DNA of 45,531 nt from a virus. Positions within the stretch are counted from its first letter, which is position 1, and the number at the start of each line of letters is the position of its first letter. The position numbers and the translations under genes were made by a program. Shown here piece after piece: positions 23,107 to 41,379 of the stretch. Where the stretch lies: positions 1-45,531 of the IMG/VR virus record IMGVR_UViG_3300043331_001889. One strand, written 5' to 3'. The notes beneath the pieces were generated by a model. The model searched no databases, had not been told where the DNA came from, and saw nothing but the letters and a program-made list of their open reading frames with translations.

Positions 23107-23161
23107 GTAGCCGTCGATGCGGGGGCTGGGAGCCGGTGCATCGCCGATGTCCGCTCCGTTG

Positions 23162-24758: not shown

Positions 24759-25573
24759 TGCCGCGCCCCCTGGCGCCAGCGCCACACCGCCAGCGCCGGC
24801 AAGAACGCATCACGGTACAGCTCCTCGATCGCTTCCGTGCCTTTCAACGACAGCGGGCCCAACGTCGCCACGTCCGGCGCCACGGGCAGGTGCACGACCA
24901 TCAGCGCATCGACCGGGTCGCCGCCCTCGCGCAGCGCCGTCGCGTAGGCCGCCGCCTGCACCATCGCCGTGCTGTAAAGCCGGCGCCCGCTCTTGAAGTC
25001 CACGACCGTGCGTCCCAGGCCCTCGATCTCCAGGTAGGCATCGAGCGTTCCGGCGTAGCCCGCCTCGCCCGCCACGGTCAGCTCGGTCGCCAGCGTCACG
25101 GGCCGCACGTTGCGCAACCACTTGCCGAACTCCGTCGCGGCATGGCGCAGGTCCACGTCGTAGCTCGGCTGCGGCCCCTGTTTGCCGTCCAGGCCCCACG
25201 CGATCAGCCGATGCAGCCGCTGGCCCGCCGAAGCCGCCGCATTGCGCACCTCATCGCAAGCGAGCGGCTCGTATCGCGCGGCGTTCTTCAGGCGCAGCAC
25301 GAGGTTCACCAGCACCGACTCCGTGGCGACGCCCGCCTGGCTCAACTGCGCGGCGGCCTCGTGCGACTTTTCGATGTGGCCCCTGAACCGTTCGCGCTCC
25401 AACTCGACGGCCCACCTGAGCCCCGGTCCCTGGTCCAGGCACTTGACCACCGACGTCACCGCGGCCCGTTCCTCGCCGCTGTCGCGATGTACGTACACGC
25501 CGCGCGGCGCGTCCTTCACCCACGGCGATTCGCCCTGCAATGCCTGCAACGTACGGCGTGGGGCGTCGTTCAT
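24755..25573 (-). CDS. PD-(D/E)XK nuclease, Cas4/RecB-like exonuclease
   Basis: 272 residues from MNDAPRRTLQ, whose ATG overlaps the upstream stop. The nuclease core is clear near residues 190-225: AGTLDAYLEIE gives the first Asp, GRTVVDFKSGRR gives the D-x-K pair, and VQAAAYATAL gives the QxxxY-type motif of RecB/Cas4 nucleases. The N-terminal part has H-containing helices. Such phage proteins serve as 5'-3' exonucleases that feed the single-strand annealing protein, here the RecT/Bet-like gene at 30.3-31.7 kb. Confidence 0.75.
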   Translation of the reverse strand: MNDAPRRTLQALQGESPWVKDAPRGVYVHRDSGEERAAVTSVVKCLDQGPGLRWAVELERERFRGHIEKSHEAAAQLSQAGVATESVLVNLVLRLKNAARYEPLACDEVRNAAASAGQRLHRLIAWGLDGKQGPQPSYDVDLRHAATEFGKWLRNVRPVTLATELTVAGEAGYAGTLDAYLEIEGLGRTVVDFKSGRRLYSTAMVQAAAYATALREGGDPVDALMVVHLPVAPDVATLGPLSLKGTEAIEELYRDAFLPALAVWRWRQGARQ

Positions 25574-25824
25574 GGCTCGACGCCCCCGATCAGGGCGCGC
25601 TCCAAGCGTTCGACCAAGTTCGCGCGCGCCCTGATGCCAATCAGCTCCCATTTGTCAGGCGTGCCTATAGCGAACAGGGCCGGGACGTCGCGGTCGGGCA
25701 GCTTGACCGTGATGCACGCTAAGTGTCGATGGCTCGGGCATTCATCCAGGCCCTGGTTGCACCTGACGTTCATGCCCGGGAACTCCTCGTCCAGCTCGCG
25801 CTGCACTTCCTCCCGTGTTTTCAT
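25570..25824 (-). CDS. Small protein, copy A of a tandem pair
   Basis: 84 residues. It shares with the next gene upstream the pattern 'L-x-E-E-F-x-G ... C-P-S-x-x-H-x-A-C-I' (LDEEFPG, CPSHRHLACI), so both appear to be tandem duplicates. The paired Cys and His could bind a metal. Unknown function; ATGA overlap with the exonuclease gene. Confidence 0.6.
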   Translation of the reverse strand: MKTREEVQRELDEEFPGMNVRCNQGLDECPSHRHLACITVKLPDRDVPALFAIGTPDKWELIGIRARANLVERLERALIGGVEP

Positions 25825-26057
25825 TTCGCGATCGCCCCCAACGTGCTCTCCGCGACGAACTGCTTCGCGTCGCGGTACATTTTCGTCCAGCTGACTCGGT
25901 GCCCAAGAGGGGTCGCAGCCACCACAGTCAGTGTTTCGCCCTCACCTGCGAACATGGAAATGCACGCGGCGTGATAGCCCGAAGGGCACGGCTGTGTCGC
26001 GACGACGGGCCCTCCGAACTCTTCCTCCAGCCTACGCAACGCCTCATCCTTCGTCAT
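25821..26057 (-). CDS. Small protein, copy B of a tandem pair
   Basis: 78 residues from MTKDEALRRLEEEFGG; ATGA overlap with the upstream gene. It resembles the adjacent 84-residue protein (LEEEFGG, CPSGYHAACI), suggesting a local duplication. The C-terminal half diverges. Unknown function. Confidence 0.6.
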   Translation of the reverse strand: MTKDEALRRLEEEFGGPVVATQPCPSGYHAACISMFAGEGETLTVVAATPLGHRVSWTKMYRDAKQFVAESTLGAIAK

Positions 26058-26311
26058 CGTTCCCTCCACGCGTCGCCCATGCCGCGGTAGCGTTCGATCT
26101 CCGCCGACTCGATCTCCGGGTGCAGCTCGCGGCACGACTCCAGGTAGTCCGCCACGACGCTCGGCGTCCACTTGCGCGCCAGAATCAACGCGACCAGCTC
26201 GAAGCGCATCGCGGCGTAGGCGTCGCGGCACAGCGGCGCCGACATCCAGCTCGGCTCTTTCGCGACGACGGCCCGTGAAGGCGGCAACGGCAACAGCGGT
26301 TTGGTGATCAC
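26054..26311 (-). CDS. Hypothetical protein
   Basis: 85 residues from a GTG at 26311 that forms GTGA with the upstream stop and has AGGGG before it. The longer frame to 26551 overlaps another gene. Helical, with MRFELVALILARKWTPSVV and an acidic C-terminus. A 24-base repeat shared with the replication gene covers the region just before its start. Confidence 0.5.
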   Translation of the reverse strand: MITKPLLPLPPSRAVVAKEPSWMSAPLCRDAYAAMRFELVALILARKWTPSVVADYLESCRELHPEIESAEIERYRGMGDAWRER

Positions 26312-26583
26312 GGGTTCCCCTTTCGGAGCCTCGAACGGAGGTCGTTCCACGCTGGCTGGAAAAGGCGTTCGAGTTCGACGTATCGCGCCGATCCAAACAG
26401 CCTTTTCAGCCCGATGTTCAAGTTGCTCGCGGTGTCTAAGATCACAACGCGACGGCCTTGGCACCACAACGCGATCGTCGCGGGCGCGAGCTGATACAGC
26501 GCGAAGTCGGGCTCCTGGGAACGGATCGTCTTGCACGTGTTGCACAGGCACAGGACGCCCGACAGCGCATCCAGTTCCCTCAG
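26308..26583 (-). CDS. Hypothetical protein with CxxC, apparent CTG start
   Basis: 91 residues if started at CTG 26583. This CTG overlaps the stop of the replication gene as CTGA and is preceded by GGAGG seven bases upstream, exactly like the ATGA/GTGA couplings elsewhere. The only other nearby start is GTG at 26601, six codons upstream, which lacks a ribosome site; no ATG or GTG follows for more than 40 codons. The protein has LCLCNTCKTIRS near the N-terminus (possible metal site) and YVELERLFQPAWNDL at the C-terminus. Confidence 0.45.
   Translation of the reverse strand: MRELDALSGVLCLCNTCKTIRSQEPDFALYQLAPATIALWCQGRRVVILDTASNLNIGLKRLFGSARYVELERLFQPAWNDLRSRLRKGNP
26321..26344. repeat. 24-base repeat, copy 1
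   Basis: The 24 bases beginning TTTCGGAGCC and ending GGAGGTCG are identical to 27024-27047. The two copies lie in different coding frames of two different genes, so the conservation is at the DNA level rather than the protein level. Confidence 0.7.
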
Positions 26584-27536
26584 CCCGGTTCCTCCAACCA
26601 CCGCTGCTGGTTCAGCCACGTCGCCGCGTGCGGGATCATGTTCGACGGCGTCGATTGGCTGCGCCAGTACTCCCGCCACTTCACCAGCCCCAGGAATACT
26701 CGGTTGAACGTCTCCTGACCATACGGCCGCACGCCACGCCACGCCCTCAGCGCCGCCAGCCGCGCCACCTTTCTCGGGTATTCGGGCCATAGCAGATTCG
26801 CGAACGCCTCCTCCCACTCGTCGCGCCCCATCGTCAGGGCATCCAGGACCTGACGCGCCTCCGTCGAAACGGAAACCGCGCCGTTGACCGGTTGGGTTGG
26901 GTGGGGTGGTAAGTCTTCACCCAAGAACCAAGTACCAAGTACAGGAGAGCGACCCTTGAGCGTGTCGCTCAACGCACGCTCAGCGACTTTACTCGTTGAT
27001 TTTCCATGGGTTACGAGGTCGCTTTTCGGAGCCTCGAACGGAGGTCGAACGGAGGTCGAACGAGAACGTTTTGCGTTCGTCGCGCGCGCTCCCTTGCTCC
27101 GCCCCTCCGTCACCCGGCGCTGGCGCCGCCCCTCCGTGGCCATCCAGCCGAGAATCCAGAACCGGCCCGACCGCACGAACGCCCGCCCGATCCCGTCGCG
27201 GCACGCGGCCCACCGGTCCCCGAGCCCCGAGAACCGGGCCAGCAGCGCATCGTCGGCCGGCAGGACGCCGGGCTGCTGCTCCTGCCACGCCTGCAGCGCC
27301 AACGTCCAGAAGCCTCCGCGTTCTTCCGGCGTCATGTGCTGCGTCGCTGCCATCAAGTCGTTCGCGTACACGAAGAACCCCGGCCAGCGGGGCTTGAATG
27401 GGTTCTTGAACCGCACGGCGGCACGCTCCCTGTGCGATGGGTCTCCTGGGGGTCGGATGGGCGCCCGTCCCCGCTTGACGGCGGTCAGGCTACCGTCGAG
27501 GGGTTGCGTGAGCCCGCGGGAGAGCGGGCGCGCCAT
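26580..27536 (-). CDS. Replication protein (DUF1376-like N-terminus, primosomal C-terminus)
   Basis: 318 residues from the ATG at 27536 (GAGG six bases upstream). GTG 27416 and GTG 27578 are alternatives; the conserved part starts near the former. N-terminal DUF1376-like pattern: FVYANDLMAATQHMTPEERG, FWTLALQAWQEQ, LPADDALLARFSGLG. The linker is basic and repeat-bearing. The C-terminal helical domain (LLWPEYPRKVARLAALRAW, then MIPHAATWLNQQRWLEEPG) is the ending typical of phage replication initiators and helicase loaders. Probably recruits replication proteins to the origin. Iteron-like repeats lie inside this gene, as the origin does in lambda gene O. Confidence 0.65.
   Translation of the reverse strand: MARPLSRGLTQPLDGSLTAVKRGRAPIRPPGDPSHRERAAVRFKNPFKPRWPGFFVYANDLMAATQHMTPEERGGFWTLALQAWQEQQPGVLPADDALLARFSGLGDRWAACRDGIGRAFVRSGRFWILGWMATEGRRQRRVTEGRSKGARATNAKRSRSTSVRPPFEAPKSDLVTHGKSTSKVAERALSDTLKGRSPVLGTWFLGEDLPPHPTQPVNGAVSVSTEARQVLDALTMGRDEWEEAFANLLWPEYPRKVARLAALRAWRGVRPYGQETFNRVFLGLVKWREYWRSQSTPSNMIPHAATWLNQQRWLEEPG
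26956..26972. repeat. Perfect inverted repeat in replication gene
   Basis: TTGAGCG, a 3-base loop, CGCTCAA. It lies in the A/T-richer linker part of the replication gene, next to the iteron-like repeats, in a stretch that also holds a short tandem ACCAAGT repeat (about 26926-26940). Confidence 0.5.
27024..27062. repeat. 24-base repeat copy 2 with tandem 11-mers (iteron-like)
   Basis: Copy 2 of the 24-base repeat spans 27024-27047. Overlapping it, the 11-mer GAACGGAGGTC occurs twice in tandem (27036-27046, 27047-27057) followed by a partial GAACG. Period 11 is close to one helical turn. Located inside the replication gene between its two domains. Confidence 0.6.
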
Positions 27537-27644
27537 CCGATCCTCGGCCATTCCAGGACCATCCCGACCGTGACTCACGCGCCGAGATTATGCCTCAACC
27601 GGACGCCCGTGGCGGTGAGTTTTTTCGCCGCGCCCGGCATGAGG

Positions 27645-27670
27645 GTTGTGGGGAGTTGTGGAAGTTGTGG
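27645..27670. repeat. Three phased GTTGTGG direct repeats
   Basis: GTTGTGG at 27645-27651, 27655-27661 and 27664-27670, spaced 10 and 9 bases, about one helical turn, so a protein could bind all copies on one DNA face. Upstream of the replication gene. Confidence 0.6.
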
Positions 27671-27761
27671 GGTGTCGCTCCCGGGATTCCGGGGGCGCTC
27701 CCCCCGGCCGCGTCTCCCAAGTCATACGTCTCCCAAGCATACGCGTTCCCTGCGACACCCC
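27669..27761. repeat. Inverted repeat enclosing a hairpin and tandem repeats
   Basis: GGGGTGTCGC (27669-27678) pairs with GCGACACCCC (27752-27761), a perfect 10-base arm. Inside lie a 7-base-stem hairpin, CCGGGGG/CCCCCGG at 27689-27707, and two near-identical 16-base units (CGTCTCCCAAG plus CATA/TCATA) at 27711-27742. Confidence 0.6.
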
Positions 27762-27997
27762 AACGGTTCCGGCTAAGGCTTCCGGCACCAGCCGTCTCTC
27801 TACGCATGTCTGGTTACAAGGCCGACGCGTTGCCTGCCTCAGCCGAACACATGGCGGATGGCGCTGCCGGGGGCGCGGTTCGCCTCACGGTTCGCTACAC
27901 CGGCCGCTTGCAGGGTGCCAACCTGGGCGTTCCCCTGCGCCATCCGCGTGACAACAAGGGCGGCTGACGCTACCGGCGCAAAGGCTCACGTGCTCCG

Positions 27998-28095
27998 GCC
28001 ACCCGCAGCGGTGCGCATCATGGCGCTTTCCGCGTACGTCGCCTGCGCCAGCCACCCAAAGCGGTGCCCCCGAGGGCGGGCATGCCCCCGGGGGC
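27998..28095. repeat. Operator-like 17-base repeats and GC palindrome
   Basis: GCCACCCGCAGCGGTGC (27998-28014) and GCCACCCAAAGCGGTGC (28051-28067) differ at two central positions. The near-palindrome GCCCCCGAGGGC (28066-28077) and the perfect palindrome GCCCCCGGGGGC (28084-28095) follow. They lie upstream of the plus-strand secreted gene and could bind one of the phage regulators. Confidence 0.5.
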
Positions 28096-28180
28096 GGGAG
28101 GAAGATGCGCGCCGGCTCTTGCGGGCGCCGGGCGCACCTGTCAACATCGCACGGTCGGTCGCGGCCGTGCAAGGGGTTCC

Positions 28181-28705
28181 TTGGCTGTCCTCACCTCCTT
28201 TCGGTCGGCCGCCTTCGCCGCCCTGGTTTGCGTGTGTGTCGCCGCCTCTCTCGCCAGTTCCGACGTCGTGCTGCGCTTCACCTACCCGGCATTCCAGGCC
28301 GACTCGTCCGGGTTCGGCGCGCCGAGCGCGGTGCCCGAATCTTCGCTCGTCCAGGTCGCCGTGCTCGGCTCGTCACGCACGCGCCCCTGGTTCCACGTCC
28401 GCACCAAGTCATGCGTCGGCATGGAAGGCCAACCCGACAGCGTGGCGCTGCCGCTCGACCTCGGCGGTGAAACGTGGCTGTTCTCCGTGAGCGTGCGCGA
28501 CAACTGGAGCAACTGGTCGTGGCCCGTGTACCTGCAGCTCAACCTGCCGCCGGTCGGCGTGGGCGACCCGCCGCACCCTAAGCCTGACCCGCCCCCGGCT
28601 CGTCAACGTTGCTACGACGTCCAGGGCCGCGCAGTCGATTGCGCCAACGTCCGTTCGGGGGTGCAGTTTCGTCGTGGCCAGATTCCGCTTTCAATCGTGC
28701 GCTGA
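28181..28705 (+). CDS. Secreted fibronectin-III-like protein on the opposite strand
   Basis: 174 residues from TTG 28181, with AAGGGG just upstream; the frame is open further upstream but has no better signal. Residues 1-27 form a Sec signal peptide: R8 in the n-region, then AAFAALVCVCVAASLASS. The mature part reads as one beta-sandwich of fibronectin-III type: VVLRFTYPAF, FHVRTKSC, SVSVRDNWSNWSWPVYLQ (the 'V.D..N.S.WS.P' ending), then a Pro-rich linker PPHPKPDPPP and a short Cys-containing tail. It is the only plus-strand gene found. Function unknown; a moron-type surface, receptor-blocking or adhesion protein is plausible. Its last 128 bases overlap the convergent minus gene. Confidence 0.65.
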   Translation: MAVLTSFRSAAFAALVCVCVAASLASSDVVLRFTYPAFQADSSGFGAPSAVPESSLVQVAVLGSSRTRPWFHVRTKSCVGMEGQPDSVALPLDLGGETWLFSVSVRDNWSNWSWPVYLQLNLPPVGVGDPPHPKPDPPPARQRCYDVQGRAVDCANVRSGVQFRRGQIPLSIVR

Positions 28706-28934
28706 GCCGCCGGGCTCGCCGATCGAGCGTCTGCAGCAGGTCCCTGTTGCTGTCATGGAACAGCGTCACCGTCATGGTCGCCGCCCACGTTGGTGAGTAC
28801 TCCTCGATCACCGTTTCGTCGTCCAGCTTCGGCAACGCCACGCCCGCCGTCCCGTCGGTGTTGAAGCAGACTGCCGCTGAGTCTGGCGGCAGTCCCTGAC
28901 ACCACCCCTGCGGTCCCTCCATCTCGTCGTTCAT
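28578..28934 (-). CDS. Hypothetical acidic protein, overlaps convergent gene
   Basis: 118 residues from MNDEMEGPQGWCQG; ATGA overlap with the upstream gene. Residues 20-80 look like a compact fold (VCFNTDGTAGVALPKLDDE). The last ~40 residues (GRWRNRLRGPGRRSN) overlap the plus-strand gene and look less protein-like, so the real end may be affected by a sequencing error or the overlap may be genuine. Function unknown. Confidence 0.5.
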   Translation of the reverse strand: MNDEMEGPQGWCQGLPPDSAAVCFNTDGTAGVALPKLDDETVIEEYSPTWAATMTVTLFHDSNRDLLQTLDRRARRLSARLKAESGHDETAPPNGRWRNRLRGPGRRSNVDEPGAGQA

Positions 28935-29731: not shown

Positions 29732-30380
29732 CGCCGGCCTCCTCCGTCGCGATCATCTCCGGCCCACCCACCGCCGTGTGGTCGTGCTGGTAAATGCGCA
29801 GCCCCGGGATGTGGCGCGTCCCGTCGGCAATGGCCGCCCGCACCAGCGGCTCGTCCACGACGCGCTTCGTATATTCGATCGGCACCTGGTTGATGTCCTC
29901 TACCTCCCACGTCCATCGCTTCACTCGCGACACCCGGCCGGCCGGCGTGTCGATGCTGGTTGGCGGCGCCGGAACGTACTCCGTCACCTCGGGCTCGGCG
30001 TCCGGCGCCTCGGGCCAGGCCGTGCCCCACTCGGCCGGGGCCGGCTGCGCCAAGACTTCCTCGGCCCGGGCCCAGCCCAGGTACAGCTCGTCCAGGCGCG
30101 CCTTGGCGTCCTTGAGCGGTCCCAGGCGGCCCTTCAGCTCGTCGCTGAGCGCCCCCTTCGCCAGCTCAATCGGGACCGTCCAGCGGCGCTGCAGGCGCTC
30201 GGCCGCCACGATGGCCCGGCGCAGTACCGCGATCGCCCCGGCCGCCGCCGTCGCACCCAAGCGGTCCTGCACGTCGATCCCTGAACAGCCGGGCAGCAGC
30301 GCCTCCGCCGCCCGTAGCTCGGGCAACGCGTCCAGCTCGCGCCGCACCTCAGCCCGCAACTGCTCCGCGTTCACGACCAC
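29712..30380 (-). CDS. RecT-associated coiled-coil protein
   Basis: 222 residues. Helical N-terminal two-thirds (LRRAIVAAERLQRRW, LGPLKDAKARLDELYL), a Pro/Glu-rich linker, then the C-terminal phrase RVKRWTWEVEDINQVPIEY followed by VRAAIADGTRHIPGLRIYQ. That C-terminal pattern is known from phage proteins encoded beside RecT-type annealing proteins (DUF1351-like). It overlaps the RecT-like gene end by 32 bases, supporting a joint role. Exact function unknown. Confidence 0.6.
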   Translation of the reverse strand: MVVNAEQLRAEVRRELDALPELRAAEALLPGCSGIDVQDRLGATAAAGAIAVLRRAIVAAERLQRRWTVPIELAKGALSDELKGRLGPLKDAKARLDELYLGWARAEEVLAQPAPAEWGTAWPEAPDAEPEVTEYVPAPPTSIDTPAGRVSRVKRWTWEVEDINQVPIEYTKRVVDEPLVRAAIADGTRHIPGLRIYQHDHTAVGGPEMIATEEAGDVAGLG

Positions 30381-31677
30381 GCTTGCCCTCCCTCTTGGCG
30401 GCGATGATCGCCTCGACCGCCTCGCTCGCCTGCTGAATCTCGTCGCGACGGAGCCGCGCCAGCTGCAACGGCCCGCTCCGTCCCATCGCCTTGATCACCT
30501 GGCCGTCCGTGATCCACAGGTCGCCGCCGAAGTCCTGCACGAACAACCGCGGCGGACGCGTGAACATGCTGGCCGCCGTGCGCAGCAGGCCCAGCAGCTC
30601 CTTGCTCCGCTCGTCGTCGCTCGTCTCGGCCGGCACCCAGCCGTGCGCCGCCAGGTCGGGCTGCTCGGCAGCCTCCACCTTCGCCAGCAGCGCGGGGTCG
30701 GGCCGCAGCTCACTCACGAGGCTGTCCGGCTCCTGCTGCACGGCCGCGTCGGCCAACGCGTCATTGATCGCCTGGGCGTCCTCGCCGCCGCCCTCCTCGT
30801 ACTCATCCGGGTTCTCGGGCAGCGGCTTCATCCGTTCGCTCCCCGGCACGATGCCCGCCGCCACACTCGGCGTCCCCGCGGGCGGCGTAGCCCCCTCGTC
30901 CAGCACTTCGACCCGGTCGGCCCACTCCGGCGACGCCTCCTTGCCGCTTTCCAGGCCGAACTCCTCCGGCACGTACACCCGCCCGATCACGTGGTCGTAC
31001 GCCTTGCGCGCCGAGAACGCGATCGCGCACTTCTCGTTCATCCAGTCGGGCAGCTTGCCCCAGATCGCGCGCAGCTGGCGCTGCTTCTTGCCGGTGCGCT
31101 TGCCGTTCTCCCACACGTCGGCCCACTTCCACTGCGCCACCTGCGCGAACGGCAGCCACGTGGTGTAGTTGACCACGCGTCCGTGCATCGCGCGCCGCAC
31201 CGTCGCCCACGCCCCAATCGGCAGCACCGCCGCCACGCCGCCGGGCCCCTGCCCCTGGCGCAGCTTCTCGCGTTCGGCCACGTCGTACTCGTGGTGCACG
31301 ACGCCATCCGCGTCGATGCTGCACCGCTCGCCCGGGTACACCACCGCGCTCGCCAGCCCGGCGTAGTCCGACTGGCGCCCGACGATCTTCAGCAGGCCGT
31401 GCACGTTGATGATGACGGCGTGTTCCTTCTCCCACTGGCCGACGTCGTTCTTGCGGTCCATCGTGATCAGCATGACCTCGCGCCGCAGCGGGTCCAGCTG
31501 CAGCACGCGCGCGTAGTGCCACACCAGCGCGGCCAACTCCGGCTTGGCGCCCGGCGCCACCGCCTGGGTCCAGAGCGTGATCCGCTGCTCAGGCGTTTCC
31601 TGGATCAGCGCGAGCGCCCGCGTCGTTCCTTCCGGCGTGGCGTCAGCCCGCGGGCCACCACTCGTTTCCGTTGCCAT
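30349..31677 (-). CDS. RecT/Bet-type single-strand annealing protein
   Basis: 442 residues from MATETSGGPR, with GGAGGAAGACG before the ATG. Residues ~25-230 match the Bet/RecT core: LVWHYARVLQLDPLRREVML, HAVIINVHGLLKIVGRQSDY, PIGAWATVRRA and CAIAFSARKAYDHVIGRVYVPEE. The second half is acidic, Ala/Glu/Pro-rich, with VQDFGGDLWITDGQVIKAMG. It anneals complementary single strands made by an exonuclease, probably the Cas4/RecB-like protein at 24.8-25.6 kb. The 200-residue C-terminal extension is longer than usual. Confidence 0.85.
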   Translation of the reverse strand: MATETSGGPRADATPEGTTRALALIQETPEQRITLWTQAVAPGAKPELAALVWHYARVLQLDPLRREVMLITMDRKNDVGQWEKEHAVIINVHGLLKIVGRQSDYAGLASAVVYPGERCSIDADGVVHHEYDVAEREKLRQGQGPGGVAAVLPIGAWATVRRAMHGRVVNYTTWLPFAQVAQWKWADVWENGKRTGKKQRQLRAIWGKLPDWMNEKCAIAFSARKAYDHVIGRVYVPEEFGLESGKEASPEWADRVEVLDEGATPPAGTPSVAAGIVPGSERMKPLPENPDEYEEGGGEDAQAINDALADAAVQQEPDSLVSELRPDPALLAKVEAAEQPDLAAHGWVPAETSDDERSKELLGLLRTAASMFTRPPRLFVQDFGGDLWITDGQVIKAMGRSGPLQLARLRRDEIQQASEAVEAIIAAKREGKRGRERGAVAG

Positions 31678-31987
31678 CGTCTTCCTCCCCGGTTGGTACG
31701 TCCTCACCGTTCCGCCGCCACGGCCAATCGCGCCTGTATGGTCCAGCGCGCCGCCGCTTGTGCTTCCGGTGCGGATACGCCTCGAAGTTCAACTCCGACA
31801 GCCCATCGCTCAGTAGCCGGAACCCAAAGGCCAGGTTGGGCCCGCTGCGCTGGCCGACGTATTGCGTAATGGAACGCGTGCGGCTACTAGCCGCCTCGCT
31901 CTGCGCGCTCTTCCACGGCCCGACTTCGCGCCGGAATCGGTCCAACAACAGGTCCGCGACCGCGTAGTGAACCACTCGCGCGCTCAC
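31643..31987 (-). CDS. Hypothetical basic protein
   Basis: 114 residues from GTG 31987 (GTGA with the upstream stop). Helical N-terminus, then strongly basic YPHRKHKRRRAGPYRRDW and an acidic Gly/Asn-rich end. Overlaps the RecT start by 35 bases. Possibly nucleic-acid binding; not recognised. Confidence 0.5.
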   Translation of the reverse strand: MSARVVHYAVADLLLDRFRREVGPWKSAQSEAASSRTRSITQYVGQRSGPNLAFGFRLLSDGLSELNFEAYPHRKHKRRRAGPYRRDWPWRRNGEDVPTGEEDDGNGNEWWPAG

Positions 31988-32805: not shown

Positions 32806-33987
32806 TCAAGCGCCGCCCTTGATGCGTCCCTCGATGTCATCCAGCGCAGCCGCTAACGCTTCTTCGACCGCCAACACCAGCCGATCCCATAGCCGCCGAT
32901 CCGCGTCGAATGCCGCCGCAACTCTCAGCGCTTCATTCATGCGCACTACAAGCGTTTTTCTCACGAGCATCGTGGGCAACGATGTACTTTCCACCAGGCC
33001 CGACTCCCGAAGCAGATGCGACTTCGGGACAGCCGGCGCCTTGCCGCGCGACTTCGGGACAGCCGGCGCCTTGCCGCGCGACTTCGGGACAGCCGGCGCC
33101 TTGCCGCGCGCGGCCACCGGCGTGTGGCGCGGGTCCGCCGCCACGTACCGCTCCAGCTCGGCCTCGCTCACCATGCGCACGGGGTTCCTGCCGTCGGGCT
33201 CAACCGCCCTCAGCCGGCCCTTGCGCACCGCCCAATGCAGCGTGGTCAGGTGGACGCCGATGCGCGCTGCCGCCTCCGGGATCGTGAGCAGCCGCGACGG
33301 CCGGGGTGCGCGGTCCTTGTTCGTGCGCGGCCCGCGGTTGCGCTGGTGCGTGCGGTCCCAGGCCCGCGCGTCCTCCGGCCGGACCAGCCACAGCCGCCCG
33401 TGCCGGTGTCCCGCCATCTCGCCCGTGTTGCAGGCGTGCGAGACCGTCGTCTGCGAGATGCCCAGCTCGGCCGCGACCTGCACGGCGGTCCACATGCCCG
33501 GCTCCGGCGACTCCTGGTGGCCGCGCGGTCGGCCGCGGCGCGGCGCATTGCGACCCAGGAGCTTCCGCTTCTCGGCCCACTCCATCACGCCCGCGCGCCC
33601 CAGCTGCGTCCACCTCGGGTGCTTCGGGTGCGGGCGCCACGGGAACGCGCCCGCCTTGGCGTAACGCGTCAGCGTGCTCGCGGCGTAGCCGGTCAGCTTG
33701 GCGGCCCGCGGCGCATCCAGCCACTCGGGCCCGTTCTTCGACGTCGTTGCCTTCTTCGTCTCCTCCTTCGCGGCGGGTTTCGCCTCGGGGCGTGGCGCGG
33801 CCGGCTCCAGCGCATGCAGCAATCCGCGCAGGTTCGTGGCCGCCGCGACGCGTTTCTCCGTCGGCGACCACACCCACCACTCCGTGCGGCCGTTCAGCGT
33901 CTTCGTGTGTAGCTCGACGCGCGGGCCGAATCGCCGCCGCGCCGCCTCCTCGACCTGATTCATCAGGTCCTGCTTCTGCCCGTCCAT
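32806..33987 (-). CDS. Protein with three excisionase/MerR-like HTH units and perfect 10-residue repeats
   Basis: 393 residues. After an N-terminal ~85-residue region there are three separate winged/excisionase-like helix-turn-helix units: ~87-140 (LDAPRAAKLTGYAASTLTRY), ~165-215 (AVQVAAELGISQTTVSHACN) and ~230-285 (TIPEAAARIGVHLTTLHWAV). The decapeptide RGKAPAVPKS then occurs three times without change, coded by three identical 30-base units. The C-terminal ~80 residues are helical (MNEALRVAAAFDADRRLWD). It probably binds DNA at several sites at once. ATG forms TGATG with the upstream stop. Confidence 0.65.
   Translation of the reverse strand: MDGQKQDLMNQVEEAARRRFGPRVELHTKTLNGRTEWWVWSPTEKRVAAATNLRGLLHALEPAAPRPEAKPAAKEETKKATTSKNGPEWLDAPRAAKLTGYAASTLTRYAKAGAFPWRPHPKHPRWTQLGRAGVMEWAEKRKLLGRNAPRRGRPRGHQESPEPGMWTAVQVAAELGISQTTVSHACNTGEMAGHRHGRLWLVRPEDARAWDRTHQRNRGPRTNKDRAPRPSRLLTIPEAAARIGVHLTTLHWAVRKGRLRAVEPDGRNPVRMVSEAELERYVAADPRHTPVAARGKAPAVPKSRGKAPAVPKSRGKAPAVPKSHLLRESGLVESTSLPTMLVRKTLVVRMNEALRVAAAFDADRRLWDRLVLAVEEALAAALDDIEGRIKGGA
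33019..33108. repeat. Perfect 30-base tandem repeat, three copies
   Basis: Units at 33019-33048, 33049-33078 and 33079-33108 are identical and in frame, encoding RGKAPAVPKS three times. Perfect identity including silent positions indicates a recent expansion. Confidence 0.9.
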
Positions 33988-34772
33988 CAGAAATCCCCTC
34001 CCTCCATGCTGAAGCGCACCAGCAGCCGCGTCGATTCCGCCGGGACCACCAGCCCGGTTGTGGCTTGGACGCTCAGCGCGCCAAGGTCAGTGAACTTCAT
34101 GCGTCGTCCGTAGCCGCTCACGAACGCCCGGCCCCAACCGCTCGGGCCGTAGGTCGCGATCTCCTGCTCGCCGGTGTACGGATGCCTGGGCAGCAGCAGG
34201 CGTCCGTGCGCCGTCACGCGGCCAAGCCGCCGCACTGCCAAATACCAACCGACGCGGCCCCGCCCCGACGTGATCGGGCCGCCGCCGACGATGTGTGAGA
34301 GATTTTGGACCGACCCCGGCCACGTCGCCTTCAGCCGCCGCCGCACCAGCTGGCCGAGCCGGGTGCCGACATTCAAACTCAACGTGTCGCGGCGCGTGTG
34401 TGTGTCGGGGTGCCACAACTTCACGGTCAACCCCATCCGATAGCTCCGCGTTGCTCCCGCCACCAACCCCGCAAACCCTCCACCACGCGGCGCCCGATGC
34501 TGCCATCGCTTGCGTATCCAGGCATACACATACTGGCAGCCCGAAACCTTGTCGGGTTTGCCGATCGCGTCCAGCGTTGCCCACACCCGGCGCTCGTCGG
34601 CCGTGTGGTCGAGCAGGCGCAGCCGGCCACGCAGCGGCAGCACGACGCGGTGGAACCGGGTGCCGCAGCGCACCCGAAACGTCAGCGGTGCGTGCGGCGG
34701 CACCATGCGCGCTCGATTGTGCCGGTTGCCCAGTACGTAGCGCTGCGCCTCTAACCAGCGATGTCCCCACAT
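33987..34772 (-). CDS. Hypothetical Arg/His-rich protein
   Basis: 261 residues beginning MWGHRWLEAQRYVLGNRHNR. Rich in Arg, Gly, Trp and Tyr, beta-rich, no membrane segments or recognised motif. It starts four bases after the VWA-peptidase gene stop and may belong to that module. Confidence 0.55.
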   Translation of the reverse strand: MWGHRWLEAQRYVLGNRHNRARMVPPHAPLTFRVRCGTRFHRVVLPLRGRLRLLDHTADERRVWATLDAIGKPDKVSGCQYVYAWIRKRWQHRAPRGGGFAGLVAGATRSYRMGLTVKLWHPDTHTRRDTLSLNVGTRLGQLVRRRLKATWPGSVQNLSHIVGGGPITSGRGRVGWYLAVRRLGRVTAHGRLLLPRHPYTGEQEIATYGPSGWGRAFVSGYGRRMKFTDLGALSVQATTGLVVPAESTRLLVRFSMEGGDF

Positions 34773-34776
34773 GGCG

Positions 34777-36075
34777 TCAGTCCTCCGTGTCCACGCGAAC
34801 CACGTGGCGAATGTGCTCGGGCACGGCGATGTCCGTAACCACGGCGGCGACCAGCCGCGTCCGCACCGGCATTTCGTGCGGCGCCGGCCACGGCGTCTCC
34901 CCGTCGGTCAGGACGACCACGACATCGGGCCGATGCTTCAGCGCCTCGACCACGCCCACGCGCATGTCGGTGCCGCCGAACCCCACAGCCAGCCGCTGCA
35001 CCTGGGACTTGCGGCGCACCTTCTCGACGACGTGCACCGCAGCGTCCACCGCGCAGCACGCGACCGGCACCTGCAACGCGCGCACTACGCCCATCACCTC
35101 GCTCAGCGCCAGTTCCAGGCGGGTCGCCCCCGCCGTCCGCGCGGCGCAGGTCATGCTCCCGCTGGTGTCGAGCACGATCACCACCTTCGGCACCGGCGAG
35201 TTGAGCGACGGACGCGGGATCGCCCGGTCGCCGAGCACCGCCCGCTGCGCCCAGTAGCGGCGCGACAGCCGCGCCCACGTGGTGTTGTCGGGGCCGCTCC
35301 GCGCCGCCACCGCATTGCGAACCATGGCGCGCAGCCGCTTGCGCCAGTCCACCCGCGGCGGCGTCAGCACCGACTCCGCCCACGCCCGCAGCCCGGCCGG
35401 CACCGTGCCGCGCGACGTCGCCTCGTGCTGGCGCACGTTCTCGGCCGTGCGCCGGCGCAGCAGCTCCTTGTCCTGGGCGCTCATCGGATCGGGCACTTCA
35501 ATGCCCGCCTGGCGCGCCCGCTCCTCCATCGAGCCCGACCCCTCGGGCCCCGGGTTGCCGGCGCAGCCGCCGCACTTGCCCCCGGCGCCCGGCACGCCGC
35601 CCTCCTTCATCGCCTGCTCGATTGCCTTCGACACCTTCTTGCGGATGATCTCGTAGTACTCCTCGAAGGTCCCGCGCGGCGGCAGGCCGAACATCTGCGG
35701 CGTCAGCGGCGAGGCCCCCTTGCCATCCTTGTCGTGCGCGATCACCGGGAACTTCCAGCCCGCCTCCAGCACGTCGTCGTTGATCTCGCAGTCGGCCGCG
35801 ATGTTCGCCAGCATCATCTCGCGGTCGCCGCGCCGCCCGGCGTGGTCGCGGACCACGTGCTGCACCTCGTGCGCCAGCACGGCAGCGCAGCCATCTGCGC
35901 CCCACTCGCTCACCTTGCCGGGGTCCACATACAGGCGCCCGCCCTCGTCCACGCCGAACGTGCCGTAGCCGGGGAACTCGACCACGCGCAGATTCATCAG
36001 CACCTCGCAGAAGTACGGCTCGCGCGAGAACACCTTCACCCGCGCCGCTGCCAGCGTGTCACGCCACGCGCTCAT
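34777..36075 (-). CDS. VWA-domain protein with putative metallopeptidase domain (DUF2201-like)
   Basis: 432 residues from ATG 36075 (GGAGG five bases upstream; the stop of the 62-residue gene overlaps it as ATGA). N-terminal peptidase-like domain: LAHEVQHVVRDHAG gives HExxH (H69, E70, H73), and IAADCEIND near 92-100 supplies a likely third ligand. A Gly/Cys-rich linker (~160-180) follows. The VWA domain begins VVIVLDTSGSM (MIDAS, 303-308) with FGGTDM and VVVLTDGETPW. This architecture is the usual partner of MoxR AAA+ ATPases, and a MoxR gene lies just upstream. Chaperone-like remodelling of a phage or host protein is the expected activity. Confidence 0.8.
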   Translation of the reverse strand: MSAWRDTLAAARVKVFSREPYFCEVLMNLRVVEFPGYGTFGVDEGGRLYVDPGKVSEWGADGCAAVLAHEVQHVVRDHAGRRGDREMMLANIAADCEINDDVLEAGWKFPVIAHDKDGKGASPLTPQMFGLPPRGTFEEYYEIIRKKVSKAIEQAMKEGGVPGAGGKCGGCAGNPGPEGSGSMEERARQAGIEVPDPMSAQDKELLRRRTAENVRQHEATSRGTVPAGLRAWAESVLTPPRVDWRKRLRAMVRNAVAARSGPDNTTWARLSRRYWAQRAVLGDRAIPRPSLNSPVPKVVIVLDTSGSMTCAARTAGATRLELALSEVMGVVRALQVPVACCAVDAAVHVVEKVRRKSQVQRLAVGFGGTDMRVGVVEALKHRPDVVVVLTDGETPWPAPHEMPVRTRLVAAVVTDIAVPEHIRHVVRVDTED

Positions 36076-36260
36076 CGCCGCCTCCAGTCGTTCCACGCGA
36101 TCAGGCCGTCACGCCAAAGCGATGGACGTGGGCCACGAACAATGCCCGCCAGCGTTTCCTCAGCCACCTGCTCGGCACGTCGAGCACGCACGCGCAGCCG
36201 CCGCCTCCAGCTGCGCGTGCTGCGGTGCTTCGGCGCCCCTACCAGTCGTTGGCGTCCCAT
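36072..36260 (-). CDS. Small basic protein in MoxR-VWA module
   Basis: 62 residues starting MGRQRLVGAPKHRSTRSW, very Arg-rich. Joined by TGATG to the gene before and ATGA to the VWA gene after it, so tightly coupled. Unknown role. Confidence 0.5.
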   Translation of the reverse strand: MGRQRLVGAPKHRSTRSWRRRLRVRARRAEQVAEETLAGIVRGPRPSLWRDGLIAWNDWRRR

Positions 36261-36841
36261 CACGCCACCCCTTCCATGCGCGTCTGCTCGTAGGCCGCCG
36301 CGCGCTTCGCGGTCTCGACCTTGAGCGCGGCGCGGGCGAACCACGTTTCCTGCTCGGCCGCCACGTACCGCCGCACCGCCCCGAATAGCTCGCCCGTTTC
36401 GCCCATCAGGTCGAAAAACAGCGCCGACTCCTGCGCCACCGCCAGCATCTTCTTGGCGCCGCGCAGCGCTCCACGCACGTAGCCCCGCGCCTTCTTGGTC
36501 TCGCGCACGCTGGCCAACCGCTCGGCTCGGTCGAACTTCTCCTGGGTGCGCTCCAGCTTGCGCGCCAGCGCGGCGCGGATGCGGTGGCACTCGGCCTCCA
36601 ACGCCTCGCGCGCCATCGCCCGCACCGTGCCCCACTCGTCCACCGCGAACGCGACGGCGTGCACGCGCGCCCCCGCTTCGCGCCACTCGTGGATCGGCAG
36701 CGCGCCGACCGCGCCGACGAATCCGATGTAGACCGACTTGCTCGCCTGGACGAACCCGGCCGCCCGCAGCGGCCAGCACAACGACAGCTTGACGCCCACC
36801 GGGACGTCGTAATGGATCAGCGCCGCCTGCTTCGTGGTCAT
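36260..36841 (-). CDS. Hypothetical helical protein in MoxR-VWA module
   Basis: 193 residues from MTTKQAALIHYDVPVG (GGGAGGAAACG before ATG). N-terminal 75 residues mixed alpha/beta (VKLSLCWPLRAAGF, SKSVYIGFVG), followed by a long charged coiled coil (ECHRIRAALARKLERTQEKF). It lies between the MoxR and VWA genes in an uninterrupted overlap chain, suggesting a shared function. Confidence 0.6.
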   Translation of the reverse strand: MTTKQAALIHYDVPVGVKLSLCWPLRAAGFVQASKSVYIGFVGAVGALPIHEWREAGARVHAVAFAVDEWGTVRAMAREALEAECHRIRAALARKLERTQEKFDRAERLASVRETKKARGYVRGALRGAKKMLAVAQESALFFDLMGETGELFGAVRRYVAAEQETWFARAALKVETAKRAAAYEQTRMEGVA

Positions 36842-37005
36842 CGTTTCCTCCCGCGTTCCAGCACCGCATACAAGTACAAGGGCCCGAACGTGGCCAACAT
36901 CGCCCAGCCGCGCTCGGGCCGTGTCATCGGGTACATCCTGAACCGCCAGCCGCTGGAACGCCCAGCCCTGATCGACAGGGCCAGGCGTCCCACGCGAAGG
37001 ATCAC
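36838..37005 (-). CDS. Small protein, 55 residues
   Basis: Starts with GTG 37005 (GTGA with the upstream stop) and ends TGA inside the next ATG (ATGA). The C-terminal half is hydrophobic and aromatic (WAMLATFGPLYLYAVLERGR), which could be one membrane helix; the N-terminus is basic. Unknown role. Confidence 0.55.
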   Translation of the reverse strand: MILRVGRLALSIRAGRSSGWRFRMYPMTRPERGWAMLATFGPLYLYAVLERGRKR

Positions 37006-37256
37006 GACGTGCGCGCTCGCGGCTTCCTCGCCACGGCCCGCAGCACCTTGTTGGCGACGGCCTTCTTGCGGCGATCCCTCAGCCTTGCGGCGCGCGCTTC
37101 CTCGAAGGCGTACAGCTCAAACGCAACGCTCCCTGCGTCGGCTTGCGCCTGCGCGATCATCCGCAGCGACACTTCGGTTCCCTTCACCCGCGACGAGCGG
37201 CGTAGCAGCCGCGCCGCCCGATCTAGTCGCTCACGCCCGAACCTCGCGGCGCTCAC
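37002..37256 (-). CDS. Small basic helical protein
   Basis: 84 residues from GTG 37256 (GTGA with the MoxR stop). Basic, almost entirely helical (RMIAQAQADAGSVAFELYAF, then RDRRKKAVANKVLRAVARK). The long frame over the MoxR gene is a shadow. Part of the MoxR-VWA chain. Confidence 0.55.
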   Translation of the reverse strand: MSAARFGRERLDRAARLLRRSSRVKGTEVSLRMIAQAQADAGSVAFELYAFEEARAARLRDRRKKAVANKVLRAVARKPRARTS

Positions 37257-38410
37257 AGCAGCCCAGCTTCGCGCACGACGCCGCTCAGCTGCCCCAGGAT
37301 TTTCTGCACCGGCTTCTCCAGCAGCCCGCCCTGCGGACGCGCACGGCCAAGCATGCGCGCCGCCACCACGACCAAGTCCTTGCCCTGGTCCATCACATCG
37401 CCGATCACGGCCCATGCCGCGTTCCAGCGCTCGCGGTACTCCTTGGCGCCGTGCTGCTTCGACGTCGCCGCCGCCGCCACCGACACCAGCACCGCGAACG
37501 TCCGGTCGGGCCGCTTCGGGTCGCCTTTGAACTTCAACTTGCCGCTCAGCAGCTCCTCCGGGTCGGGCAGGTCGGTTTCGCGCAGCCACGCCGCCAGCTC
37601 GACCGCGCCGGGCTCGCCGATCGTGCCCGCCAGCAGCGGCAGCGGCGCGTCGGCGTCCTCGAACGCGTAGCACGTGGCGAGCAGCAGCATCGCGTTGTCC
37701 CACGTGCGGTAGGAGGCGAACTGACCCACGCCGCGCCCCTCCGTCTTGATGCAGTCTTCGTTGGCCAGCCCGGGCCGCGTGCGCAGGAACGCCGTCACGT
37801 GCGCGCGGGCCAGCGGGACCTTGCGTTCCCACAGCTCGGCGTCGAACGACGGCAGATCGGTCGCCACGCTGCGCCCGCTCAGGATGAACTCGGACCACAC
37901 CTCCAGCGGCAGCGCCGGCCAGTTGATGTGCGTTGCCCGGTTGCTGAGCGCATGCGCCAGCTCGGTGCCGTTCGCCGCCATGTCGGGCGGGTTGGCGGCG
38001 CCGACGATCTTGACGCGGTCGGGCGGCAGCACCGTGTCGCCCGCCTTGCGCTCGTGGTACAGGCGCATCAGCGGCGCCTGGACGTTCTGCGGCGCCGTCG
38101 TCATCTCGTCCGTGAGGATCAGCACGATCTTGCCGGTGTTGGCGACGTCCAACGCCTCGCGCACCCAGTCGGCCGGGTAGCGAGTCATCCGGTCGCCGTG
38201 GGCCCACGGCGTGCCGCCGATGTCCTCGGGCAGCACGTCGCTAAAGATGCGGTGAATGAAGTGCCAGCCCGCCGACTGCGCCAGCTGGCCGACGATCGCC
38301 GTCTTCGCCACTCCCGGCGGCCCCCACAGAATCGGGGGCAGCGCGCCGGGCGTCATCAGGCAGTAGTACAGCAGGCGAACCTGCATGGGAATCGCACTCA
38401 GTGCGGCCAC
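37253..38410 (-). CDS. MoxR-family AAA+ ATPase
   Basis: 385 residues. Walker A is GPPGVAKT at 30-37, Walker B IVLILTDEMTTA with D101/E102, sensor-1 region VKIVGAANPPD near 133-143, and an Arg-containing LSNRATHINW after it. This is the MoxR/RavA type, close to the start of the protein. The C-terminal lid and ~150 further residues (KLKFKGDPKRPDR) are less typical. MoxR ATPases work with VWA proteins, and such a gene follows four genes downstream. Functions known in bacteria include activating metalloenzymes; the phage role is unknown. Confidence 0.8.
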   Translation of the reverse strand: MAALSAIPMQVRLLYYCLMTPGALPPILWGPPGVAKTAIVGQLAQSAGWHFIHRIFSDVLPEDIGGTPWAHGDRMTRYPADWVREALDVANTGKIVLILTDEMTTAPQNVQAPLMRLYHERKAGDTVLPPDRVKIVGAANPPDMAANGTELAHALSNRATHINWPALPLEVWSEFILSGRSVATDLPSFDAELWERKVPLARAHVTAFLRTRPGLANEDCIKTEGRGVGQFASYRTWDNAMLLLATCYAFEDADAPLPLLAGTIGEPGAVELAAWLRETDLPDPEELLSGKLKFKGDPKRPDRTFAVLVSVAAAATSKQHGAKEYRERWNAAWAVIGDVMDQGKDLVVVAARMLGRARPQGGLLEKPVQKILGQLSGVVREAGLL

Positions 38411-38411
38411 G

Positions 38412-38786
38412 TCACACCTCCCTGTCCGCGGCGCAGTCGCTGTGCGTGCGCCAGTAGATGTCGTACTCCGTGTCGCTCATCAGGTCGAGGCCGTAGGCGT
38501 CGAGCAACGCCTGGGTCGCGGCTTCCTTGGTGTCGAAGCAGGACTCCGCCCCCTCGGTCCACGGCCGCTTGTCGTCGGCGTTGACCAGGCGCCACGGCCC
38601 GCGGTCGCGCGGTTGCAGCTGCGAGAACTCGGGGTGCGCGGTGTCGAGGATGACGCACCGAACACCCACGCCCTCCCCCTCCTCGTCGCGCCGCAGCAGC
38701 GCTTCCGCCGCCGTATCACAACGCGCGACCACCTCGGCGAAAGCCTCCTTGTACCCCTGCCGGAGAACCAAGAAACGCCCGGTCAC
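38412..38786 (-). CDS. Hypothetical protein upstream of MoxR
   Basis: 124 residues from GTG 38786 (GTGA with the upstream stop; AGGAGG before it). Contains RCVILDTAHPEFSQLQ and FDTKEAATQALLDAYGLDLM, soluble alpha/beta. It ends two bases before the MoxR ATG. Unknown. Confidence 0.55.
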   Translation of the reverse strand: MTGRFLVLRQGYKEAFAEVVARCDTAAEALLRRDEEGEGVGVRCVILDTAHPEFSQLQPRDRGPWRLVNADDKRPWTEGAESCFDTKEAATQALLDAYGLDLMSDTEYDIYWRTHSDCAADREV

Positions 38787-39511: not shown

Positions 39512-40333
39512 CTACGTGGTGGGCACCACTTGCCGCGAAGATTGGAGCGTGCGCCTCGGATTCGAACCGGGACCTCCCGCGCGGGAACGCGGACGCGCTG
39601 CCGGGTTGCGCCACGCACGCTCTGACTTGGAGGGCAACGATGCAATGCGATCGTACATCTGCAGCGCGGGCACCACACGATGAATGCCCGACGCCTCCTT
39701 GATCGTGACGAACAACGCCGCGCGGTCAGGATGAGGCTGCGGCGTGAGCTTCAACTGCGCGCGCAATCGTTCGACATCGCGCAGCGGATACCAGTACCGG
39801 AAGATCGGCGCTTCAACTTTGACGGTGCCAGGGAAGACGCGCGCCATGTCTTTGAGCCCGGCGCGGGCATAGCGTTCGGTGCAGGATCGTGCGTGCAAGA
39901 ACCCAACGCCGGGCAGGTAATAGCAGTAGGATGGAAACGCGCCGAGATACTCGAAGTTGGCGGCCTGATAGATGCGCCCCGTGAGCCCCTGGTAGCCCGC
40001 GCCAGTTGTATAGACGAACTTGTACTTGGAGTGGCGCTTCAGCATGCGCAACACCAGCCCCAGCATCTGCGTCGGGCCCATGCGGCATGTCTGGCGACAG
40101 AACGAGCGGACGATTTCGACGTAGTCGCTCACGCGCGGCACGGGCTCGTGAAACATCGCCCGCAGCAACCCGGCTTGTTGGACGCCCCGGCCAAGACCGA
40201 CGTACCCCTGGAGGCCGCCATCTCGCCAAAAACCAATATACCTGTGCTGCTGGCCAAGCGGTTGTGGGCGGTCGGGAAAAGCCTTCAGTAGGTCGGCGCG
40301 ATCAATGGGCCGAATGAGCGTTGTCGATGGCAT
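39512..40333 (-). CDS. Mom-like DNA modification protein (GNAT-type fold)
   Basis: 273 residues from MPSTTLIRPIDRADLL; overlaps the ParB-like gene end by 32 bases. Central residues show the Mom/GNAT pattern: GFWRDGGLQGYVGLGRG (strands around an acetyl-CoA-type loop), DYVEIVRSFC corresponding to the 'E.NR.V' strand, KYKFVYTTGAGYQGLTGRIY and QAANFEYLG, the 'G..G.IYqA.NF.y.G' signature. Mu Mom converts adenine in DNA to a carbamoylmethyl form that blocks restriction. The last ~36 codons read through a tRNA gene on the same strand, so the original C-terminus ended near residue 240. Confidence 0.65.
   Translation of the reverse strand: MPSTTLIRPIDRADLLKAFPDRPQPLGQQHRYIGFWRDGGLQGYVGLGRGVQQAGLLRAMFHEPVPRVSDYVEIVRSFCRQTCRMGPTQMLGLVLRMLKRHSKYKFVYTTGAGYQGLTGRIYQAANFEYLGAFPSYCYYLPGVGFLHARSCTERYARAGLKDMARVFPGTVKVEAPIFRYWYPLRDVERLRAQLKLTPQPHPDRAALFVTIKEASGIHRVVPALQMYDRIASLPSKSERAWRNPAARPRSRAGGPGSNPRRTLQSSRQVVPTT
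39543..39620 (-). tRNA. tRNA-Gly (irregular, probable 8-base anticodon loop)
   Basis: 78 bases including an encoded CCA. Acceptor GCGTGCG pairs with CGCACGC, D-stem GCGC/GCGC with loop AACCCGGCA, T-loop TTCGAAT. The anticodon stem TCCGC/GCGGG closes an 8-base loop GTTCCCGC; either register of U33 gives a glycine anticodon (UCC or CCC). Glycine identity elements agree: U73, G1-C72, C2-G71, C35, C36. Irregularities: one C-A mismatch in the T-stem and one extra G before the 3' acceptor strand. It lies inside the 3' end of the mom-like ORF. A degenerate pseudo-tRNA cannot be excluded. Confidence 0.65.
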
Positions 40334-40889
40334 TGAGTAGAAACTGCTCCTTACTGCCGCCCGACGCTTCCAGGGCGGCTTCCCAATCGGCGATGCGCTC
40401 GCGCGGGATCGTGAAAGTGATCTGCACATAATCGCGGTTGCTGCTGGATTCCGGGCGCTCGAAGGCTTCGATCCAGTCGGTGTTATCGGGCGGCTTGATG
40501 GTATACGGCTTCAACAGCGCCCGCACCGCGTCGTCGATGTCGTCGCGTCGGTCCATCAGCTCACGCAACGCGTCGCCGTTAGCAGACGCCATGCTTGCAA
40601 TAGGGTCGATGCTGAGCAACAGCTTCTCGGCCTCGCCTTCATCGACGTCCAGAACCAGCACGGGCACCTCGGCGTCCGGCTCCAGCCCGGCCCGCAGGTG
40701 CCCGTCCACCAGCTCCAGCGTCCCGTTGTCCGTCTCGCGCGCCAGCACGGCGTCGGCCCAGCCGATCTCCTTGAGCACGCCGGTGAGCGCGGCGCGTTGC
40801 TCGGCCGGATGGGTGCGCCAGTTCTTCGGACTCGGTCGCAGGTCCCCAGCCCGGACCCGGCGCAGCCCCTTGATGCGGTCGCGGATCAT
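40302..40889 (-). CDS. ParB/Srx-like nuclease-domain protein
   Basis: 195 residues from MIRDRIKGLRRVRAGDL; ATGA overlap with the upstream gene. The ParB N-terminal pattern is visible: DLRPSPKNWRTHPAEQRAAL, GTLELVDGHLRAGLEPDAE (the 'DGHxR' box) and VPVLVLDVDEGEAEKLLLS. No ParB HTH domain follows, so it is not a partition protein. Phages often pair such proteins with DNA-modification genes; a mom-like gene follows here. C-terminal ~60 residues are a separate helical part. Confidence 0.7.
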   Translation of the reverse strand: MIRDRIKGLRRVRAGDLRPSPKNWRTHPAEQRAALTGVLKEIGWADAVLARETDNGTLELVDGHLRAGLEPDAEVPVLVLDVDEGEAEKLLLSIDPIASMASANGDALRELMDRRDDIDDAVRALLKPYTIKPPDNTDWIEAFERPESSSNRDYVQITFTIPRERIADWEAALEASGGSKEQFLLNAIDNAHSAH

Positions 40890-41017
40890 CGGCCCCAGAA
40901 CGCCACGAACAGGGTTAGAACGATGGCGAAGTCCACCGCCCAGCCCGGCACCTTGCCCGCCGCCGAGCCCACCGCCAGCAACAGGTCCACGAACAGCAAC
41001 ACGATCAGCAGGCTCAC
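40886..41017 (-). CDS. Tiny two-helix membrane protein (holin candidate)
   Basis: 43 residues from GTG 41017 (GTGA overlap). Almost entirely hydrophobic: VSLLIVLLFVDLLLAVG and WAVDFAIVLTLFVAFWG separated by a short GSAAGK-type turn, so two membrane helices. Encoded four genes downstream of the amidase. A pinholin/holin or other membrane helper is plausible from size and place. Confidence 0.55.
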   Translation of the reverse strand: MSLLIVLLFVDLLLAVGSAAGKVPGWAVDFAIVLTLFVAFWGR

Positions 41018-41379
41018 CGTCGCCCCCCAAGTCCAATGGTGTACGTCGCCGACGCGCGCCACACGGTATACGGGTCGCGCTCGTCCTCGTTCGGCCACAC
41101 TTGCATGGCCTCCGCCTCGATCGCCCACTTCGGCGCCACTGGCCACACGCCGCGCAGGAACAACTGGGGCGGGTCCTTGGGTTGGTTGGGCCGCGGCGGC
41201 GCGGGCAACGGACCGCACGGGGCGCACGGCTGCGCCTCGTCGTAGCCTTCCCACAGGAAGCCGGCGCCGATCACCAGGTGCGGGCCCATGTGGGAGCAGA
41301 TGCCGGGATGCTTACACTTCGCCCACGCGGGCACAGCCAGCAACGCGAGCAACACGGCCAGAAACACGGCCTTACGCAT
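41014..41379 (-). CDS. Secreted protein with signal peptide
   Basis: 121 residues. A textbook Sec signal peptide MRKAVFLAVLLALLAVPAWA with cleavage after AWA, then mature KCKHPGICSH. The mature part has a Pro-rich centre (GPLPAPPRPNQPKDPP) and ends ATYTIGLGGRR, like an outer-membrane strand end. The first Cys follows the cleavage site by one residue, so it is not a standard lipobox. Located in the lysis region; may help outer-membrane disruption or alter the host surface. Confidence 0.6.
   Translation of the reverse strand: MRKAVFLAVLLALLAVPAWAKCKHPGICSHMGPHLVIGAGFLWEGYDEAQPCAPCGPLPAPPRPNQPKDPPQLFLRGVWPVAPKWAIEAEAMQVWPNEDERDPYTVWRASATYTIGLGGRR

Follow-up and report, generated by a model that had tools for sequence, protein, structure and literature searches.

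A phage-borne MoxR ATPase and metallopeptidase-VWA protein pair related to N4 gp24/gp25

Pairs of a MoxR-type AAA+ ATPase and a VWA-domain protein have been described in several groups of viruses. The few core genes shared by N4-like phages include the gp24/gp25 pair (PMC7650795), and for its counterpart in the group 2.2 jumbo phages a function in virion assembly with proteolysis was proposed (Iyer et al. 2021; PMC7824862). In the Acidianus two-tailed virus (ATV), the ATPase p618 is a virion protein that interacts with proteins of the virion as well as with the VWA partner p892 (PMC4124505), and a CobS/CobT reading was put forward for the AAA+/VWA pairs of archaeal tailed viruses (Liu et al. 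2021; PMC8651126). Literature searches gave no experimental work on any phage member that has the peptidase domain and nothing on the function of N4 gp24/gp25. Here, such a pair was analyzed in the IMG/VR virus record IMGVR_UViG_3300043331_001889, the whole analyzed stretch of which (45,531 bases, 68% GC) is referred to as the window. The recognizable genes of the window lie on the minus strand, among them those for a MoxR-type ATPase (37253-38410, minus strand) and for a protein in which an N-terminal DUF2201_N zincin-like metallopeptidase domain is fused to a VWA domain with a MIDAS motif (34777-36075, minus strand), hereafter the VWA protein. As judged from its sequence, the locus is a further example of the already known MoxR/metallopeptidase-VWA pair.

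Identity, conservation, and linkage of the two large genes

The MoxR protein of 385 amino acids (aa), a homolog of N4 gp24, matched the family phrog_1297 (E = 1e-38), AAA_5 (E = 5e-7), and AAA_3, and its Walker A (GPPGVAKT) and Walker B (LTDE) motifs, sensor 1 Asn, and Arg finger were intact. The VWA protein of 432 aa, a homolog of N4 gp25, matched PF13203 (DUF2201_N; E = 1e-30), PF09967 (DUF2201; E = 4e-13), and phrog_1314, and carried the motifs HExxHxxxxH (HEVQHVVRDH), AxDxxIN (AADCEIND), and MIDAS (DTSGSM...T...D). The family matches and motifs confirmed the initial annotation of a phage-borne MoxR AAA+/VWA-metallopeptidase pair with intact catalytic motifs. In its longest form, the VWA open reading frame (ORF) spans 34777-36096 on the minus strand; comparison with relatives makes the ATG at 36075, which forms a 4-base overlap with the preceding stop, more likely than the start at 36096.

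An AlphaFold2 model of the VWA protein reached a mean predicted local distance difference test score (pLDDT) of 80. Its N-terminal part was modeled as a helical zincin-like domain resembling selecase (4qhi; template modeling [TM] score of 0.52 by target length), and its C-terminal VWA domain was closest to NorD of NorQD (9qhe), TFIIH-type domains, and the midasin MIDAS domain (8ql1). The top Foldseek matches were to Ro60/TROVE proteins with TM scores of 0.22 to 0.26 and a root mean square deviation of >20; this likeness was read as a VWA domain plus helices only and was rejected. By sequence, the VWA protein had no significant match in the PDB.

In PHROGs, phrog_1314 is labeled as an HNH endonuclease, and the label is carried in the records of N4, PA5oct, AR9, Atu_ph07, and others (e.g., NC_008720 gp25, NC_071039 gp144, and NC_031039 gp029). 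No HNH model in Pfam matched the VWA protein of the window or seven phage homologs, all of which matched DUF2201_N and DUF2201. An HNH endonuclease was therefore excluded, and from these domain matches the label is a propagated error. This wrong label, recognized in the present analysis, is the most used annotation of the VWA family and hides it.

The residues expected of a metallopeptidase and a MIDAS site were largely retained in relatives, which were checked for their loss. Of 44 phage VWA proteins, 42 kept the HE dipeptide and 43 kept H73, H78, and D95; taken together, HExxHxxxxH, AxDxxIN, and MIDAS were conserved in 41 to 43 of this set, and every one of the 26 actinobacterial proteins compared had them as well. 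The exceptions at the zincin site were Atu_ph07 (HQ), locus L009, and a frame derived from L013. A single alignment of all phage VWA proteins proved too diverse for use in scanning.

The tblastn searches returned relatives of the VWA protein in 143 phage records and of the MoxR protein in 215. Scans of IMG/VR yielded 12 and then 40 loci, which came down to 38 contigs once duplicates of a single contig and a further two near-identical ones had been removed; genes in the relatives were called approximately, as the longest ORF. A MoxR gene was seen near the VWA gene in 34 of the 38 contigs, in most within 2.5 kb and mostly upstream on the same strand, and in the remaining four the VWA gene lay at the contig end. 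The pair also occurred in jumbo phages, in N4-like phages, and on actinobacterial chromosomes, where MoxR directly preceded VWA at 77 loci, commonly with a 4-base overlap. At 49 of these 77 loci, a conserved gene of ~470 aa lay directly upstream of the operon (e.g., L015, 7252-8664). The window protein formed a long branch in the VWA tree, surrounded by IMG/VR sequences and on the same side as the actinobacterial clade, without a firm exact position. At locus L123 (6224-10331, plus strand), the pair was surrounded by five short paralogous genes (67 to 88 aa) that look like the product of a local tandem expansion.

The pairwise distances of the MoxR and VWA proteins correlated with r = 0.86 (n = 36 phages), and none of 2000 permutations exceeded 0.36. 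This co-divergence, together with linkage across very different genomes, supports a functional pair, that of the window included; the phrog_1297 AAA+ domain, the zincin-VWA fusion, and these two properties are the features by which the phage pair is recognized.

Predicted role and timing of the pair

Taken as a whole, the best explanation, held at a probability of about 45%, is that this N4 gp24/gp25-type pair remodels and cleaves an intracellular client early to mid infection and does not serve virion assembly. The MoxR protein would form an AAA+ ring on which the VWA domain would dock, and the MIDAS metal site would grip an acidic residue of the client or of the ring, by analogy with NorQ-NorD, RavA-ViaA, and midasin. 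ATP hydrolysis would pull on and remodel the client, which the fused zincin domain could also cut. The predicted client is a protein or nucleoprotein of the phage replication, recombination, or transcription program, or one of the host.

An early or middle role is favored over virion assembly because of the gene neighborhood, an early promoter, and a virion proteome. Around the pair, about 34 IMG/VR loci carried mainly genes for helicases, ParB-like proteins, RusA, sigma-70, endonuclease VII, primase, and Dam, compared with two terminases and one portal. In the window, the pair sits between Mom/ParB-like and RecT/replication genes, apart from the head genes, and N4 gp24/gp25 are located between the genes for RNA polymerase and those for DNA polymerase. 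In AR9, an early promoter is annotated just upstream of the ATPase gene, while 41 of 43 virion proteins of this phage are late (PMC5312081). The virion proteome of the N4-like phage LIT1 contains no gp24/gp25 homolog (PMC3715699).

Against these observations stands a chaperone-protease that remodels and cleaves structural proteins at particle maturation. This is the published proposal for the jumbo phages (PMC7824862) and draws on the analogy with ATV p618/p892, in which the VWA protein lacks a peptidase domain. It is also favored by the record of the PA5oct ATPase, which bears an electrospray ionization tandem mass spectrometry note like those of the structural proteins of that phage. Given the mostly DNA-metabolism neighbors, the AR9 promoter, the absence from LIT1 virions, and the missing peptidase domain of the ATV VWA protein, a function in virion assembly is considered less likely, though a live rival.

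Several points weigh against an early-to-mid intracellular role. The PA5oct ATPase may be present in virions, as p618 is in ATV, and the AR9 pair may be expressed continuously. The co-divergence may in part reflect shared phage ancestry, and the two or three members with a damaged zincin site suggest that proteolysis may be dispensable. No biochemical or genetic data for phage members were found.

The pair could instead act as a device of host takeover, counter-defense, or competition that disassembles or cleaves a specific protein of the host or of a rival phage. Its early position in AR9, its patchy occurrence across very different phages, and the MoxR-VWA cores known from proposed conflict systems (PMC7159879) would agree with such a device, but core status across the N4-like phages (PMC7650795) suggests a general need and not a contest with one host. 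No PADLOC model of known anti-phage defense systems was matched. A MoxR-vWA-VMAP/beta-propeller ternary conflict system was rejected, with bpMoxR (PF20030) scoring 11.7 bits against a cutoff of 27 and no such third component among the annotated neighbors. A device against the host or a rival phage is rated less likely than the early-to-middle role, though it too is a live rival.

For the preferred reading of an early-to-middle remodeling machine, the comparative data frame a question testable in N4, namely, whether the pair acts in replication or middle transcription or in particle assembly only.

Short reading frames, accessory genes, and surroundings of the pair

About 1.2 kb separates MoxR from VWA in the window, all on the minus strand and filled by four ORFs of 84 aa (37002-37256), 55 aa (36838-37005), 193 aa (36260-36841), and 62/63 aa, Arg-rich (36072-36263). 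They were initially described as an unbroken chain of 1- to 4-base overlaps linking the two large genes. The overlaps are real where claimed (37256/37253, 37005/37002, 36841/36838, 36263/36260, and 36075/36072; 4 bases each, or 1 base with the 62-aa start). A TGA stop after A, G, or T always yields a formal start codon overlapping that stop. The chain is therefore weak evidence of design, since such starts arise cheaply where TGA is used heavily; overlaps of 1 to 4 bases were present in 12 of 37 adjacent gene pairs in the partial gene list of the window.

Codon composition was scored with a model trained on ten large genes and compared with 710 null segments. The scores of MoxR, VWA, and the 193-aa ORF lay beyond all 710 nulls, and these three genes are solid. 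The score of the 84-aa ORF, weakly coding in composition, was reached by 7% of nulls, and those of the 55-aa and 63-aa ORFs by 23% and 29%, so that the latter two are indistinguishable from chance in this respect; the coding status of all three remains unproven. The 63-aa frame belongs to a longer open stretch of 265 codons beneath the 193-aa gene, as is frequent in GC-rich DNA. The single-sequence fold of the 193-aa protein looked helical at low confidence (pLDDT of 49).

Homology searches with the four small proteins gave no relative of any of them beside another MoxR-VWA pair or elsewhere searched, and neither the small nor the flanking genes had relatives in IMG/VR or phage records. Between MoxR and VWA, other phages carry zero to about ten genes, none of them constant: RNase H in phiFa, a homing endonuclease and three small genes in PA5oct, and five genes in Planktothrix phage Pag-Yong1. 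Because the intervening genes differ from phage to phage, the module of six genes is not conserved. The same six-gene order, sought in other phage genomes, did not recur, and the initial annotation of one module gave way to a pair that does without these small genes wherever else it was found, including 38 further IMG/VR contigs, named phages, and the 77 actinobacterial loci. The short ORFs are most likely lineage-specific additions to the same operon, as local extras.

A DUF6744 protein (PF20529) of ~290 residues adjoined the pair in most phages of one VWA clade (13 of 16) and in several phages outside it, an association first noted here. DUF6744 was absent from seven named phages and, searched for anywhere, from the window. 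Copies were located at L105 (9481-10386) and L011 (9068-9967) and also at L103, L104, L106, L116, L130, L131, and L139; the L105 copy had no tblastn match in GenBank phages. The 193-aa protein was rejected as a DUF6744 homolog (hhalign E = 0.18 over 20 columns; hidden Markov model E = 0.39). Tentatively, the pair could serve phages in general as an early-to-middle machine for remodeling or cutting a nucleoprotein of the replication or transcription phase. The choice of client would then fall to exchangeable third components, DUF6744 in one large clade and orphan helical proteins like that of 193 aa elsewhere.

A closer bond, with all six genes co-evolved as one module and the small proteins serving the MoxR-VWA machine as adaptors or substrates, would be in line with the overlap chain, the clearly coding 193-aa gene, and the constant third gene of the DUF6744 clade. 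It is improbable in view of the free variation of the intervening genes, the lack of relatives beside any other pair, the failure of the 193-aa protein against the DUF6744 profile, and the weak or missing coding support of three ORFs.

The genes of 124 aa and 261 aa initially annotated before and after the locus were found at 38412-38786 and 33987-34772, respectively, both on the minus strand. The former lies 1 base from MoxR, the latter 4 bases from VWA, and neither matched a family. A 1-base overlap joins the 261-aa gene to the next one (32806-33987, minus strand), which encodes a protein of 393 aa with three DNA-binding domains of the HTH_17/excisionase type and, by its position, would share the transcription unit. 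A decapeptide of the SRGKAPAVPK type is repeated three times in the linker of this protein (about 33010-33070).

The recognizable genes of the window comprise a tail-fiber-like region, the genes for ParB-like and Mom proteins, the MoxR-VWA locus, and the genes for the triple-HTH_17 protein, RecT (30349-31707), a DnaD-like replication protein, and an exonuclease, together with those for a terminase, a portal-MuF protein, the capsid, and the tape measure. Gene calls from terminase to the replication genes (20147-28900) are uncertain, with lower codon contrast and competing frames. A portal search found no close relatives of the whole phage. The Mom-like DNA modification protein (PF25680, E = 2e-17; 39512-40429) and the adjoining ParB-like protein (40302-41036) are encoded on the minus strand at 39512-41036, and the phage probably carries a modified base. 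Mom-like and ParB-like proteins are also encoded at L002, another carrier of the pair. A tRNA with an undetermined anticodon, called by ARAGORN at 39543-39620 (minus strand), overlaps the C-terminal end of the Mom ORF, which casts doubt either on the tRNA or on where the ORF ends.

Comparison with known systems

A viral CobS/CobT cobaltochelatase motor boosting cobalamin synthesis follows the same AAA+ plus VWA logic and would fit the weak match of the MoxR protein to phrog_249 "porphyrin biosynthesis" (E = 1.5e-5), but it deserves very little credence because no CobT model matched the VWA protein, a strong DUF2201_N/DUF2201 member, the zincin site is conserved, and the E value for phrog_1297 was better than that for phrog_249 by about 33 orders of magnitude.

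With N4 gp24/gp25, core genes of the Schitoviridae, the window pair shares both families, the MoxR-then-VWA order, the domain fusion, and the catalytic motifs. The identity is about 21 to 23%, the neighbors are different, and N4 has a 167-base gap with no annotated gene between the two. The group 2.2 jumbo-phage pair (e.g., Atu_ph07) has the same domain architecture and pairing but resides in jumbo genomes, compared to a 45.5-kb record here, and Atu_ph07 has HQxxH instead of HExxH. The pair recurs in both jumbo and small phages.

The actinobacterial MoxR-DUF2201 operon shares 34 to 39% identity over the VWA protein, a MoxR gene directly upstream, and the same motifs; its genes usually abut or overlap with no small genes between them, often with the ~470-aa gene upstream. 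ATV p618/p892, compared by their published description, likewise combine a viral MoxR ATPase and a VWA partner but belong to an archaeal virus, as a virion component with no peptidase domain (Iyer et al. 2021). NorQ-NorD, RavA-ViaA, CbbQ-CbbO, and midasin are work-alikes built from an AAA+ ring and a VWA/MIDAS adaptor, and the modeled VWA domain resembles the NorD and midasin VWA folds; in contrast to the phage pair, they have no fused zincin, and their known clients are enzymes or ribosome precursors.

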